Below, piece by piece: positions 56,293 through 61,653 of a stretch of DNA of 64,000 nucleotides (its first letter is position 1; the number at the start of each line of letters is the position of its first letter). This stretch comes from Clostridia bacterium. Its GTDB lineage: Bacteria > Bacillota > Clostridia > Oscillospirales > Acutalibacteraceae. The stretch lies in assembly GCA_017399405.1 (NCBI GenBank), contig JAFQCT010000010.1, positions 149,430 to 213,429 on the forward strand, given 5' to 3'. A program made the position numbers and the translations under genes. The notes beneath the pieces are model-generated. The model did no database searches, was not told the DNA's origin, and was given only the letters and a program-made list of their open reading frames with translations.

Positions 56293-56377
56293 GTATGCAA
56301 CTATTAGTTATAATGTGTAACTATGGGTGAAAACAGTTAAAAGCAAGTTAAAATACATAAAGGATAAGGTGCATATT

Positions 56378-57349
56378 GTGATTGAATTCAAAAATGTTTC
56401 AAAAACATATGATAATGGTACTGCCGCACTTCGCGATGTATCTATTACAATCAATGATGGCGAGTTCGTTTTCATTGTTGGTTCATCAGGTGCAGGTAAA
56501 AGTACATTTCTTAAAATAATAATGCGTGAGCAGGTGGCTGACCAAGGTAGCATTATTGTTAATAACTATAATCTTAACAAAATGAAAAAGCGTGAAATTC
56601 CAAAGTTCCGCAGAACAATGGGTATTGTTTTCCAAGATTTCCGTCTTATTCCTAATATGACAGTTTTCGATAATGTTGCATTTGCTATGCGTGTTATCGG
56701 TGCAAAAGAAAAAGAAATAAGAAAAAGAGTACCTTATGTGTTAAGCCTTGTAGGTCTTACATCAAAGGCAAGACAGTTGCCAACACAACTTTCAGGTGGT
56801 GAGCAACAGCGTGTTGCCCTTGCTCGTGCACTTGTAAATAACGCAGGCATTATTATTGCCGATGAGCCTACAGGTAACATTGACCCTGAAATGTCTTACG
56901 AAATCGTTGATTTGCTTAATCATATCAATAACAATGGTACAACTGTCGTTATGGTTACTCATGAGCATGAGTTGGTGCGTCGTTTTAACCATCGTGTAAT
57001 CACAATCAATCAGGGACAAGTTGTGTCAGATACAGGTGTAAAACAAAAATCAGTTGTTGAAACAGCAACACCTATTACTGAAACAGAAAGCAAGCCTGAA
57101 ACAAAAGAAGAAATGATGCAGGCTGCCGAGCAGGAAATTCAGGAGAATGTAGAGAAACTTCGTGAAGAAGTAAAATCACCTGAAATTATTGAAGAAAACA
57201 GCAATACAAAATATTATGAACAACCAAATGTTGATAAAGAACTTGAAGATTTTATGAAGAATTATGGCATTGATAGTGATGACTTAACAACTGACAGTGT
57301 TGATTATTCAAAATATCTTGATAGTGATGACGGAGGTGACAAGCAATGA
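56378..57349 (+). CDS. ftsE: Cell division ATP-binding protein FtsE with acidic C-terminal extension
   Basis: A 323-residue ABC ATPase. Walker A GSSGAGKST (about 35-43), the Q-loop region IVFQDFRLIPNMTVFDNVAF, signature LSGGEQQR, Walker B IIIADEPT and the H-loop VTHEHE are all present in the first 225 residues. The last 100 residues are an extra acidic, probably disordered tail (PITETESKPETKEEMMQAAE... ending DSDDGGDKQ) not found in ordinary 225-residue FtsE. FtsE with FtsX drives wall hydrolase activation at the septum or side wall. The GTG at 56378 gives the family start IEFKNVSKTY and has AAGGTG six bases before it. It overlaps ftsX by 4 bases. Confidence 0.93.
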   Translation: MIEFKNVSKTYDNGTAALRDVSITINDGEFVFIVGSSGAGKSTFLKIIMREQVADQGSIIVNNYNLNKMKKREIPKFRRTMGIVFQDFRLIPNMTVFDNVAFAMRVIGAKEKEIRKRVPYVLSLVGLTSKARQLPTQLSGGEQQRVALARALVNNAGIIIADEPTGNIDPEMSYEIVDLLNHINNNGTTVVMVTHEHELVRRFNHRVITINQGQVVSDTGVKQKSVVETATPITETESKPETKEEMMQAAEQEIQENVEKLREEVKSPEIIEENSNTKYYEQPNVDKELEDFMKNYGIDSDDLTTDSVDYSKYLDSDDGGDKQ

Positions 57350-58254
57350 AAGGTGCAAGTTTGAAGTATCTTACAAAAGAAGGCTTCCGTAATGTGTGGG
57401 TAAACCGTCTTATGTCATTGGCATCAGTATCAGTTCTTATGGCTTGCCTTGTAATTATAGGACTTGGTGCTATGATTTTCTTCAACATTGACGCGTTGCT
57501 TGACACAATTGAGCGTCAAAATGTTGTTATGGTTTATGTTGATAAAGCGGCAACTGATGAGCAAACCTCACAGATTGGTAATCAACTTAAAACTATGAAT
57601 AATATTTCCGATTGTATTTTCGTACCAAAAGAAGATGCTTTTGAAGCCCAGAAACAAGCAATGGGTGATGATGCAGCACTTCTTGAAGGTCTTGACGAAA
57701 ATCCACTACCTGATGCTTATAAAGTTACGGTAGCAGATTTAACACAGTTCAAAGCAACTGTTGATGGTATTAAAAAATTAGATTATGTTGATACCGTTCG
57801 TGAAAACAGTGATGTAGCCGATAAACTTATCGGTATCCGAAAAGGTGTTACAGCAGTTATAATCGGTATGGTTTCATTGTTGTTTATAGTTTCATTGTTT
57901 ATTATTTCTAATACAATCCGTATTACAATGTTCTCACGAAAACTTGAAATCAGCATTATGAAAGCAGTCGGTGCTACTAACTGGTTTATCCGTTGGCCAT
58001 TTATGGTTGAGGGTATGCTTTTAGGTGTTATTGCAGGACTTGTATCCTTTGGCGTATTAGCAGTACTTTATCAGGGTATGGTTTATGTATTCAGTGATGT
58101 TCTTGCAATTTTCACACCTGTTGCATTCGGCGGATACGCAGGCTACATATTGTTAGCATTTATGGCTGTTGGCATTTTCACCGGTTCATTCGGAAGCCTT
58201 ATTTCAATGGGCAAATATCTTAAAGAACAGGGGAGTGTTGTAAGTGAAGATTAG
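57346..58254 (+). CDS. ftsX: Cell division permease-like protein FtsX
   Basis: A 302-residue membrane protein with four helices and a large extracellular loop between the first two (about 45-165). The N-terminal segment YLTKEGFRNVWVNRLMSLAS and the later ISNTIRITMFSRKLEISIMKA and GATNWFIRWPF segments identify FtsX. The loop binds coiled-coil wall hydrolases or activators, and the next gene encodes such a protein. The two genes overlap by 11 bases. Confidence 0.95.
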   Translation: MKGASLKYLTKEGFRNVWVNRLMSLASVSVLMACLVIIGLGAMIFFNIDALLDTIERQNVVMVYVDKAATDEQTSQIGNQLKTMNNISDCIFVPKEDAFEAQKQAMGDDAALLEGLDENPLPDAYKVTVADLTQFKATVDGIKKLDYVDTVRENSDVADKLIGIRKGVTAVIIGMVSLLFIVSLFIISNTIRITMFSRKLEISIMKAVGATNWFIRWPFMVEGMLLGVIAGLVSFGVLAVLYQGMVYVFSDVLAIFTPVAFGGYAGYILLAFMAVGIFTGSFGSLISMGKYLKEQGSVVSED

Positions 58255-59602
58255 TAAAAAAATCCTTTCATTTGTGTTTGCTTTAGTTTTGCTTATGACT
58301 TCAGTTTCATTCCCTGCATCTGCAAAGACAGCATCAGATTTTCAAGATGAAATTGACTATTGGGAAGACTTTGTTTCAAAAAATGAAGCAAGTGAAGAAG
58401 CAACTCAAAAACTTATTGATGCACTTGATGAACAAAACTCTGCTATAAGTGCAGAGGTTGCGGATAAAGAGAAAGAGATTTATCCAAAAAGAGTTGAAAT
58501 CAACGAACTCAATGAACAGATTGCGACACTTGAAAAACGCATAACTGAGCTTAGCAACGAGATTACAAAAATCGAAACACAGACAGAAGAACAGAATAAA
58601 AAGATTGACGAAATTTATGATGTTCTCGGTGAGCGTCTTTGCGCCTCATATATGGCGGGCGAAACAAGCGAACTTGAAGTCTTTTTAAGTGCAACAAGTT
58701 TTGAAGATTTCCTTACCCGTAGTGAACTTCTCCGTCAGGTTGCACAGCACGATAACGAAGTGGTTTCAGGACTTGAAGAAAAAATTAAAGAACTTAACGA
58801 AATGCTTGAAGATTTAACAGCAAAACGCACAGAAATTGAAGAAAGCAAGGTTAAGATTGAGACAGATAAAAAAGAAAGAGAAGAAAAAACAGCAGTTCTT
58901 GAAAAGGAACTTGCGGTATTGCAAAAAAAAGAGAATAAAATTGTTGATAACTTAAATAGGCAGAATACACTTCTTGAAAAATATCAGAATAATCAGTCTT
59001 ATGGCAATGAACAGATAGCAAAGACAGAAAGAGAAATGAGAGAGTGGGAACAACAGGTTCAGGAAGATGCAGGTAATTCCGGCTCAACAGGTGACGGTTA
59101 TGTAAGCAGTGGTGGTAATCATAACTTCAAAAAGTCATCAAAGGGTTACATAAGTCCTATTCAGGATAAGTCAGTTTACTATTCAGCAACCTATGCACAG
59201 CACAGTTCTCGTGGCTCAAAATCAGTTGACTTCTGTGCACCTGCAAACCGTGTGTTCACAAATGGTAAAACATATTATACAACAAACGGTGCAAAAATTT
59301 ATGCGGTTGCAGGCGGAACTGTTGTTACATCATATGTGCAAAAAACAGGTGGTAATGTTATTATTATCGACCACGGTAATGGTATGAGAACACTTTATGC
59401 TCATTGTCGTGTTCGTTATGTTTCAGCAGGTCAGCGAGTAAATCAAGGTGATGTAATTGCCCTTGTTGGTAATACAGGTACAGCGGTTTATCCAAGACCA
59501 ACAAGTTCTAACCCGGTTGCAGGCTCACATCTTCATTTTCAGATGCTCCTTAACGGTAGCCCTGTAAACCCTGAAAAATATCTCCCATCTCCACTCGTTT
59601 AA
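58244..59602 (+). CDS. Secreted coiled-coil LytM (M23) protein, EnvC/PcsB-like, apparently degenerate
   Basis: A 452-residue exported protein: signal peptide to about residue 27 (SFPASA), long coiled coils (about 30-125 and 170-275) and a C-terminal LytM domain (about 300-445). The layout and place after ftsX match EnvC/PcsB-type FtsEX partners. In the LytM domain D329 (KSVDF), H387 (YAHC) and H429/H431 (SHLHF) are present. The usual metal-binding His four residues before the Asp appears to be S325; H320 lies five residues earlier and might or might not substitute. If the ligand is truly lost, the domain would act as an activator of another hydrolase. The GTG start overlaps ftsX. Confidence 0.82.
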   Translation: MKISKKILSFVFALVLLMTSVSFPASAKTASDFQDEIDYWEDFVSKNEASEEATQKLIDALDEQNSAISAEVADKEKEIYPKRVEINELNEQIATLEKRITELSNEITKIETQTEEQNKKIDEIYDVLGERLCASYMAGETSELEVFLSATSFEDFLTRSELLRQVAQHDNEVVSGLEEKIKELNEMLEDLTAKRTEIEESKVKIETDKKEREEKTAVLEKELAVLQKKENKIVDNLNRQNTLLEKYQNNQSYGNEQIAKTEREMREWEQQVQEDAGNSGSTGDGYVSSGGNHNFKKSSKGYISPIQDKSVYYSATYAQHSSRGSKSVDFCAPANRVFTNGKTYYTTNGAKIYAVAGGTVVTSYVQKTGGNVIIIDHGNGMRTLYAHCRVRYVSAGQRVNQGDVIALVGNTGTAVYPRPTSSNPVAGSHLHFQMLLNGSPVNPEKYLPSPLV

Positions 59603-59640: not shown

Positions 59641-60840
59641 TTGAATAAAAAAATATCATTAGGCTTGGCACTTTCTTTAGTATTCTTGTCAGTTGCATTG
59701 GCAGTTACGCTTACAATGACATTCTCATTGCAAATCTATAACGGAATTATCAAAGATGTTGCCGACCGTTCAAATCTCTATTCAACAGTATCAGAAATTG
59801 ACGATTTAGTTCGCGAAAACTACTTTGGAGAATTAAACGAGAATTTCCTTAATACTATGATGTCTGACGGTTTTGTTGAGGGTGTAGGTGACCGTTACAG
59901 TTACTATATGACCGCAACAGAATATGCCGATTATCTTGACGAAGACAAAGGTAATAAAGGCGGTATCGGTATTATCGCAGTTTATGATAGTCAGAATAAT
60001 AACATTTATGTTTCAGAAGTTTCTGCAAAATCTCCTGCACAAGTTCAGGGAATACAGAAAGGTGATGTTATTACTGCTGTTGACTCCGTTAAGGTAACAC
60101 CTTCAAATTACGAAGAACTTATCAAAAAACTTGACGGTGAAAAACTTACTAATGTTCAGGTAACTTTTAAGCGAGGCGAAACTGAAAAAACTGTTTCTGT
60201 AGCTCGTGGATATTCTGCACAGTCAGTTTATTACAGCGTTACTGATAAAGTGGGCTATATTAAGATTACAGCATTTTACAGCACAACTGCTGACCAGCTT
60301 GAAGACGCTCTTGATTATATGAGTAAAAATTCAGTAACAGGTATTGTCTTTGATGTGCGTAATACAAGTACCGGACTTATAAGAAACGCAGTTAAGTGTA
60401 TTGATATTATCGCCCCTGTTGCAACTGAGGGTACGGGTGCATTGGCAACTGCAGTTGATAAAGACGGTAAAACAATCGAAACATTTACATCTGACTCAGA
60501 TAGCAGAAGTTTTGCTATGTCAATTCTTGTAAATGGCAACACTTCAGGTGCAGCAGAACTTTTTGCTTGTGACTTGCGTGATTTCGGTATTGCAGGGCTT
60601 GTAGGTACAAAAACTGCAGGTAATGGTACAATGCAAAAAGTTTTTGAGTTAAGTGACGGTAGTGCAGTAGCCCTTACAGTTGCAAAAGTTGTTCCTTATA
60701 AGAGTGAAAGTTTCAATGGTATAGGTCTTGAACCTGACCACAAAGTAGAACTTACAGCAGAACAGAACTCAAGACTTCCAATGCTTAACTTGGCAAATGA
60801 CCCACAATATCAAAAAGCACTTACATTAGTTAATAACTGA
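59641..60840 (+). CDS. S41 C-terminal-processing peptidase homologue lacking catalytic Ser and Lys
   Basis: A 399-residue protein with an N-terminal membrane helix (about 7-30), a helical part, a PDZ domain (about 105-180, GIQKGDVITAVDSVKV) and an S41 fold. In active CtpA/Prc enzymes the catalytic Ser (S-A-S-A-S-E) and Lys (FGKGT) are 25 residues apart. Here the matching segments read NTSGAAELF and TAGNGTMQ, with G303 and N328 at those two places, also 25 apart. The rest of the fold is well kept (LSDGSAVALTVAKVVPY). The protein is therefore probably a pseudoprotease, perhaps a PDZ scaffold for the FtsEX-LytM complex. The start is TTG, after AAAGGATGATG. Confidence 0.85.
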   Translation: MNKKISLGLALSLVFLSVALAVTLTMTFSLQIYNGIIKDVADRSNLYSTVSEIDDLVRENYFGELNENFLNTMMSDGFVEGVGDRYSYYMTATEYADYLDEDKGNKGGIGIIAVYDSQNNNIYVSEVSAKSPAQVQGIQKGDVITAVDSVKVTPSNYEELIKKLDGEKLTNVQVTFKRGETEKTVSVARGYSAQSVYYSVTDKVGYIKITAFYSTTADQLEDALDYMSKNSVTGIVFDVRNTSTGLIRNAVKCIDIIAPVATEGTGALATAVDKDGKTIETFTSDSDSRSFAMSILVNGNTSGAAELFACDLRDFGIAGLVGTKTAGNGTMQKVFELSDGSAVALTVAKVVPYKSESFNGIGLEPDHKVELTAEQNSRLPMLNLANDPQYQKALTLVNN

Positions 60841-60888: not shown

Positions 60889-61653
60889 ATGTTTTGCGTT
60901 CTGAATGTTGAAAAGAAAAAACTTACCTTGCTTGAAAAAATCTTTCGTTTTTTAGCAGAGGACGATTATATTATTAAAACTGTACCCGTGTTCAAAGGTG
61001 CACCGTTTTATATGCTTGATGTTAAAATCTGTGAACAAATTGATTGGGATAAAGTAATAGAAAACACAGGCAAATGTAGTAAAAGACTTTTGCTAAATAA
61101 CTGTCTTGAAATTCCACAAGATAAGGGGATAGGCGTGTTCAAAAGTGACATTTTATATAATAAAGTTTTTCATAATACAGTTTTGCAGATTATAAAAAAT
61201 AATAAACGCAAAAAAGATTTATATCATATAGCAGTTTATGATAAAAACGCAGATTTTATTGATTTTACAACCCGTTTGTCAATGTATTCCTCAAAACTTA
61301 CGGTAGTCACAGAAAATAAAGAAAAATATATGAATTTGTGTGATACTATTCTTGAAAAAACAGGACTTTGTATATCTATGCTTTCAGATTTTGACAATGC
61401 AAAAATTAAAATAGATACAGTAAGAAATGTAATGAGTATTGACACAAATAATCAGTTTCTCAATATAAAAAATGGCGAAAATATTATAGTAGATGATATT
61501 TATAAAAAAATACTTCCTCAAAATGTAAATGAACAAGATTTTTACTCTGCTCTTTATGAACTTTGCGGAGTTTTCTCGTTAGGTGAATGTATTTTTGAGA
61601 ATGTAATGGTAAACAATGAAAAAAAGCGTACAGATACTGTTACTTTCTCTTGA
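60889..61653 (+). CDS. Hypothetical protein
   Basis: A 254-residue soluble protein I do not recognise. It has no signal peptide or membrane segment. Alternating strands and helices, such as LYHIAVYDKNADFIDFTTRL and LTVVTENKEKYMNLCDTILE, suggest a Rossmann-like domain around residues 105-185, perhaps sensing dinucleotides or forming a shikimate-dehydrogenase-like scaffold, but no binding loop is clear. The end (FYSALYELCGVFSLGECIFE) is helical. It sits between the division module and greA, and its ribosome-binding site is inside a terminator hairpin, so expression is likely low or regulated. Confidence 0.65.
   Translation: MFCVLNVEKKKLTLLEKIFRFLAEDDYIIKTVPVFKGAPFYMLDVKICEQIDWDKVIENTGKCSKRLLLNNCLEIPQDKGIGVFKSDILYNKVFHNTVLQIIKNNKRKKDLYHIAVYDKNADFIDFTTRLSMYSSKLTVVTENKEKYMNLCDTILEKTGLCISMLSDFDNAKIKIDTVRNVMSIDTNNQFLNIKNGENIIVDDIYKKILPQNVNEQDFYSALYELCGVFSLGECIFENVMVNNEKKRTDTVTFS

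Follow-up and report, generated by a model that had tools for sequence, protein, structure and literature searches.

The catalytic residues of the S41A C-terminal processing peptidases (CTPs) are Ser309-Lys334-Gln338 in CtpB and Ser302/Lys327/Gln331 in CtpA. In the S309A variant of CtpB, the conformational change persists upon peptide binding to the PDZ domain, showing that a dead CTP can remain a binding switch. Here we describe a CtpB-like protein encoded next to ftsE, ftsX and an M23 peptidase gene in a 64,000-nucleotide stretch of a Clostridia bacterium contig (JAFQCT010000010.1; the whole stretch is called the window below). Like CtpB and CtpA it has the S41 fold, a PDZ domain and the Gln four residues after the Lys site, but the catalytic Ser, the Lys and the N-x-G-G loop of CtpB, CtpA and Prc are gone.

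Three other systems are comparable in part. The IRBP/RBP3 modules are non-proteolytic, retinoid-binding proteins with an S41-type fold like that of the window's protein (fold matches 7jti, 4lur and 9frx), but they are vertebrate, occur as tandem modules and bind another ligand. They are also not known to have a PDZ domain. CspC of Clostridioides difficile is likewise a pseudoprotease from the Clostridia and serves in regulation; it differs in being subtilisin-like, soluble and involved in spore germination. SweC and SweD of Bacillus subtilis are cofactors of FtsEX-CwlO, which makes extra factors for an FtsEX-controlled hydrolase a known arrangement; they are likened here by description only, and the available portion of that source mentions no S41 relation. 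Among the matches listed by title in the open-licence PubMed Central literature, none treats an S41 pseudoprotease from bacteria, which does not prove that no such work exists. As IRBP and CspC are known and no such paper was found, we class the protein as a new branch of a known family: it is a pseudoenzyme branch of S41A, with non-proteolytic S41 folds and clostridial pseudoproteases of another family already described.

Loss of the catalytic residues in an intact S41 protein

The open reading frame (ORF) was verified and begins with TTG. The S41 core matches PF03572 over residues 203-369, scoring 104.1 bits against a cut-off of 24; within residues 104-187 PF13180, PF00595 and PF17820, all of them PDZ models, exceed their own cut-offs. 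Fold comparison of the protein model recovered the CtpA/CtpB fold and matched residues 106-192 to PDZ structures. A hydrophobic N-terminal helix is predicted at moderate predicted local distance difference test (pLDDT) values. The score against TIGR00225, the NCBIfam prc subfamily, was 167.1 bits and below the cut-off of 218.6, a comparison in which active family members were not scored as a control.

A script readout gave N300 T301 S302 G303 A304 A305 E306 at the first catalytic motif and K324 T325 A326 G327 N328 at the second. In phmmer alignments to 6vbb, CtpB (4c2h) and two P. aeruginosa CtpA sequences, both motifs were gap-free, and all four placed G303 at the nucleophile and N328 at the Lys position. 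This residue assignment comes from sequence alignment, fold comparison yielding aligned ranges and not residue pairs. The G303-N328-Q332 spacings of 25 and 4 residues are those of CtpB and CtpA. The initial annotation of this DNA had proposed that Gly and Asn replace the catalytic Ser and Lys at the spacing of the dyad, in a protein whose frame and remaining domain are intact, and the alignments and profile matches confirm this observation. A protein that lacks nucleophile and base would not be expected to cleave peptides by the known chemistry. Arg168 of CtpB, the residue that couples the PDZ to the cap, was tried as a marker and dropped, its position (Asp165 here) being variable in active forms as well (R in only 3/23 and 13/36).

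Conservation in the genus and family

Within the genus, a homologue was found in 38 of 40 genomes, the window's included (no match in G011 and G026), and all 38 carry Gly/Asn. A replacement common to every homologue read is not due to chance, and a single-strain change or read error, which the initial annotation had named as a risk, is excluded. The family sample comprised 250 genomes of the GTDB family, which we take to be Acutalibacteraceae. PF03572 matched in 155 of these, and 149 were read (G078, G186, G199, G200, G219 and G223 were left unread). Forty-two have Ser+Lys (the active forms), 99 have Gly at the Ser site and eight have another state (K in two, A in two, Ser without Lys in four). 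Three of the four Ser-without-Lys forms (L351-L353) look by eye like another S41 subfamily; they are kept in the 149 and excluded from the set of 104 non-active forms, which includes the fourth, L071. Gly accordingly occupies the Ser site in 99/104 non-active forms.

The Lys site of the 99 Gly forms is diverse (N 22, K 13, R 13, V 12, Y 9, H 8 and others). Gly is a general feature, and Asn is fixed in the genus only: the suggested conservation of the Gly/Asn pair stands for the genus and does not extend as a unit to the family, where 22 of 99 Gly forms have Asn. The N, G and G of the D-x-R-x-N-x-G-G loop are invariant in 77 active forms (42 from the family, 35 from other families), and the N and the first G are each gone in about half of the 104 non-active forms. 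Named relatives are assemblies of uncultured gut and other Clostridia, Oscillospiraceae and Ruminococcaceae, including Candidatus Fimenecus excrementavium; they were retrieved by a Gly-containing pattern (80/80 Gly) and were not used for frequencies. Profile libraries name such proteins S41 peptidases. Most of the S41 proteins read in the family sample cannot use the known Ser-Lys chemistry, so this label by itself is no ground for expecting CTP activity in gut Clostridia.

Selection on the non-active forms

Nei-Gojobori ratios of nonsynonymous to synonymous change (dN/dS) were 0.03-0.16 for 16 pairs of closely related non-active forms, the values being rough in the nine pairs with dS > 1, and 0.05 and 0.08 in two active pairs with one common member. 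Twenty-two columns between residues 85 and 380 are at least 95% conserved in the 77 active forms. Twelve of them, among which are Gly110 in the PDZ loop, Asp238, Arg240, Glu306, Gly322 and Gly327, remain at least 90% conserved across the 104 non-active forms; of the ten that are lost, seven lie in the catalytic motifs. The protein is almost certainly a selected, CtpB-type S41A pseudoprotease and neither a decaying gene nor a read error, in line with the initial annotation's view that decay was unlikely. The same annotation held that the protein was kept for its PDZ and fold, and the PDZ part of this is weakened: judged on the alignment, 10 of the 104 non-active forms lack the PDZ and have the full core. 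These PDZ-less proteins (L107, L115, L338, L341 and L345-L350) keep the N-terminal segment and the core. The sole active row without a PDZ (L342) begins at a contig end.

Forms in other families and origin of the Gly state

At the order level, own family included, S41 was found in 218 of 247 genomes. The loci read at this level were those of the 30 best scorers (one of them, L220, from the window's own family) and of 26 chosen low-scoring genomes; with the window's row taken out, the 57 resulting rows comprise 36 with Ser+Lys, eight with Cys+Lys, nine with Gly and four in other states, one of these truncated. They are a chosen set and imply no frequency. The eight Cys+Lys forms (L234, L236, L238, L239, L243, L244, L245 and L250) all come from one other family (f22), and all have an M23 gene upstream. 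They do not form one group in the tree, one set being sister to Gly forms. They may be cysteine-type CTPs or an intermediate on the way to Gly.

Motif columns were excluded from the trees. The Gly-form clades A (the window's), B, C and D are each well supported. Changes of the Ser state numbered four in a quick tree of 117 rows, from which L106 was excluded, and two (63 rows) and six (53 rows, other families included) in careful trees; a single Gly clade was not rejected (approximately unbiased test, p-AU 0.176 and 0.084). We therefore claim no fixed number of Ser losses. The Ser codon is AGY in 38 and TCN in 21 of 59 active rows, so Gly is one step away from only some Ser codons.

Genomic neighborhood

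The S41 gene follows ftsE, ftsX and a gene for a coiled-coil M23 protein (Table 1), the location in an FtsEX module that had been noted initially.

Table 1. Features of the S41 locus in the window
Feature	Position	Strand
ftsE; FtsE model begins at ORF residue 18, true start may be later	56327..57349	+
ftsX	57346..58254	+
Coiled-coil + M23 peptidase (PcsB/EnvC-like), directly upstream of the S41 gene	58244..59602	+
S41A/CtpB-like pseudoprotease gene, 399 aa: predicted N-terminal hydrophobic helix, PDZ, S41 core	59641..60840	+
PDZ domain, carboxylate-loop glycines Gly108/Gly110 kept	59950..60201	+
Altered loop D-V-R-N-T-S-T-G (D-x-R-x-N-x-G-G in active forms)	60352..60375	+
Codon GGT, Gly303 at the catalytic-Ser position	60547..60549	+
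Codon AAT, Asn328 at the catalytic-Lys position	60622..60624	+
Gln332, kept, equivalent of CtpB Gln338	60634..60636	+

A same-strand M23 ORF lies upstream of S41 in 113 of 118 family-level loci, and two of the five exceptions are at contig ends. Where flanks are long enough, FtsE and FtsX precede M23-S41 in active and non-active loci alike; this neighbor check covered long flanks in most of L061-L119 and 1.5 kb flanks in L002-L059, with the 2-kb loci L289-L353 excluded. In the family sample, FtsX was found in 231 and S41 in 155 of the 250 genomes, and S41 is present in 5 of the 19 genomes without FtsX (hand count). S41 is an accessory.

The M23 protein encoded in the window, like its closest relatives (L003-L017), has a longer H...RG....D spacing in place of the HxGxD zinc motif and keeps HLH. 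One could suppose that M23 turned pseudoenzyme alongside S41; this was rejected, as most M23 neighbors of non-active forms keep HxGxD and HxH by eye. At locus L119, no M23 match lies between ftsE-ftsX and the S41 gene, which is of the Gly type. Sporulation loss was also rejected as a cause, SpoIVB (TIGR02860) being above its cut-off in 195/250 family genomes, counted over the sample as a whole. At E 0.001 it was found in 239/250, a threshold that also matches non-sporulating controls, and the window's genome has a match at 4.0e-103.

Proposed role and alternative explanations

We consider it probable that this S41A pseudoprotease acts as a scaffold or switch for FtsEX-M23. The N-terminal helix would anchor the protein in the membrane, facing outward. 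Cutting having been lost, a peptide or protein partner could still dock, be it in the former substrate tunnel, on the PDZ or at the surface of the core, and the protein would most likely serve as a scaffold or conformational switch of the FtsEX-M23 wall-cutting module that holds, shields or positions either the hydrolase or some cofactor. In an active ancestor, that partner would have been trimmed or degraded instead. The switch is proposed on the behavior of CtpB S309A and the neighboring hydrolase. Taken by itself, the role with FtsEX-M23 is suggested by gene order, and we regard it as evenly balanced. Bolder, and rather unlikely as a whole, is a scenario in which an ftsEX-M23-linked CTP became a non-cutting, peptide-gated switch controlling the FtsEX hydrolase in much of one gut Clostridia family and part of a second of the order, the Ser-to-Gly change itself being selected (Gly 99/104) because it leaves the tunnel able to hold a peptide without cutting it, while in a sister lineage Cys+Lys was either a passing stage or the end state.

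Several observations weigh against the scaffold or switch. S41 is missing from 95 of the 250 family genomes, 81 of which have FtsX (hand count), and in 12 of 13 S41-less loci examined an M23-profile ORF lies close to ftsX, the match being weak in one. As these loci keep FtsX and M23, the FtsEX module works without S41. Active forms sit beside ftsEX-M23 just as the dead ones do, so this position does not reveal the function of a dead form. The PDZ is missing in 10/104 non-active forms. A shared PDZ ligand at the M23 C-termini was considered and rejected, none being seen by eye. The Asp165 that replaces the PDZ-cap coupling Arg of CtpB points the same way, although it says little given the variability of this position in active forms.

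A selected pseudoprotease with a job unrelated to FtsEX, such as ligand binding or membrane-protein quality control, that merely shares the gene cluster, is a less likely reading. IRBP provides a precedent for an S41-fold binding protein, and adjacency is no proof of interaction; however, wherever flanks suffice, active and non-active loci throughout the family have the order FtsE-FtsX-M23-S41, and M23 is upstream in 18 of 20 chosen non-Ser+Lys loci of other families.

That the protein still cleaves, through Thr301 or Ser302 with Lys324 or by other chemistry, is very unlikely. Among non-active family rows, Thr301 (92/94), E306 (94/94) and Q332 (76/94) are well kept, but Thr/Ser at 301 and E306 are just as common in active forms and so are not new, and D238 and R240, fully conserved charged residues, are also shared with them. 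Position 302 is S in 40/94 non-active and A in 22/23 active rows, and 324 varies in both; with such variation S302/K324, which the initial annotation had raised as possible active-site residues, do not fit, and the sequence alignment does not place them there. The erosion of N and first G in the N-x-G-G loop also argues against cleavage. A decaying gene on its way to loss is harder still to credit. S41 loss is common in the family and PDZ loss occurs, yet frames are intact, the dN/dS values are low (rough where dS > 1), and the catalytic columns have relaxed while structural ones, and Gly, were kept. Regulation of an active S41 paralogue through mixed oligomers is conceivable, CtpB being a dimer and CtpA a hexamer, but seems barely plausible: the window's genome, 97.5% complete, has a single PF03572 match, which argues against such a partner, and only one S41 match was present in each of 93 of the 104 family genomes with non-active forms (hand count).

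If the switch proposal is true, a pseudoenzyme layer has been added to FtsEX control of wall hydrolases, and active and dead orthologues at the same locus would form a natural comparison set. A further gene, at 60889-61653 between S41 and greA, is found in many, not all, same-genus loci and in a few others; its product gave only a sub-threshold match to SPP1_Dit in Pfam.
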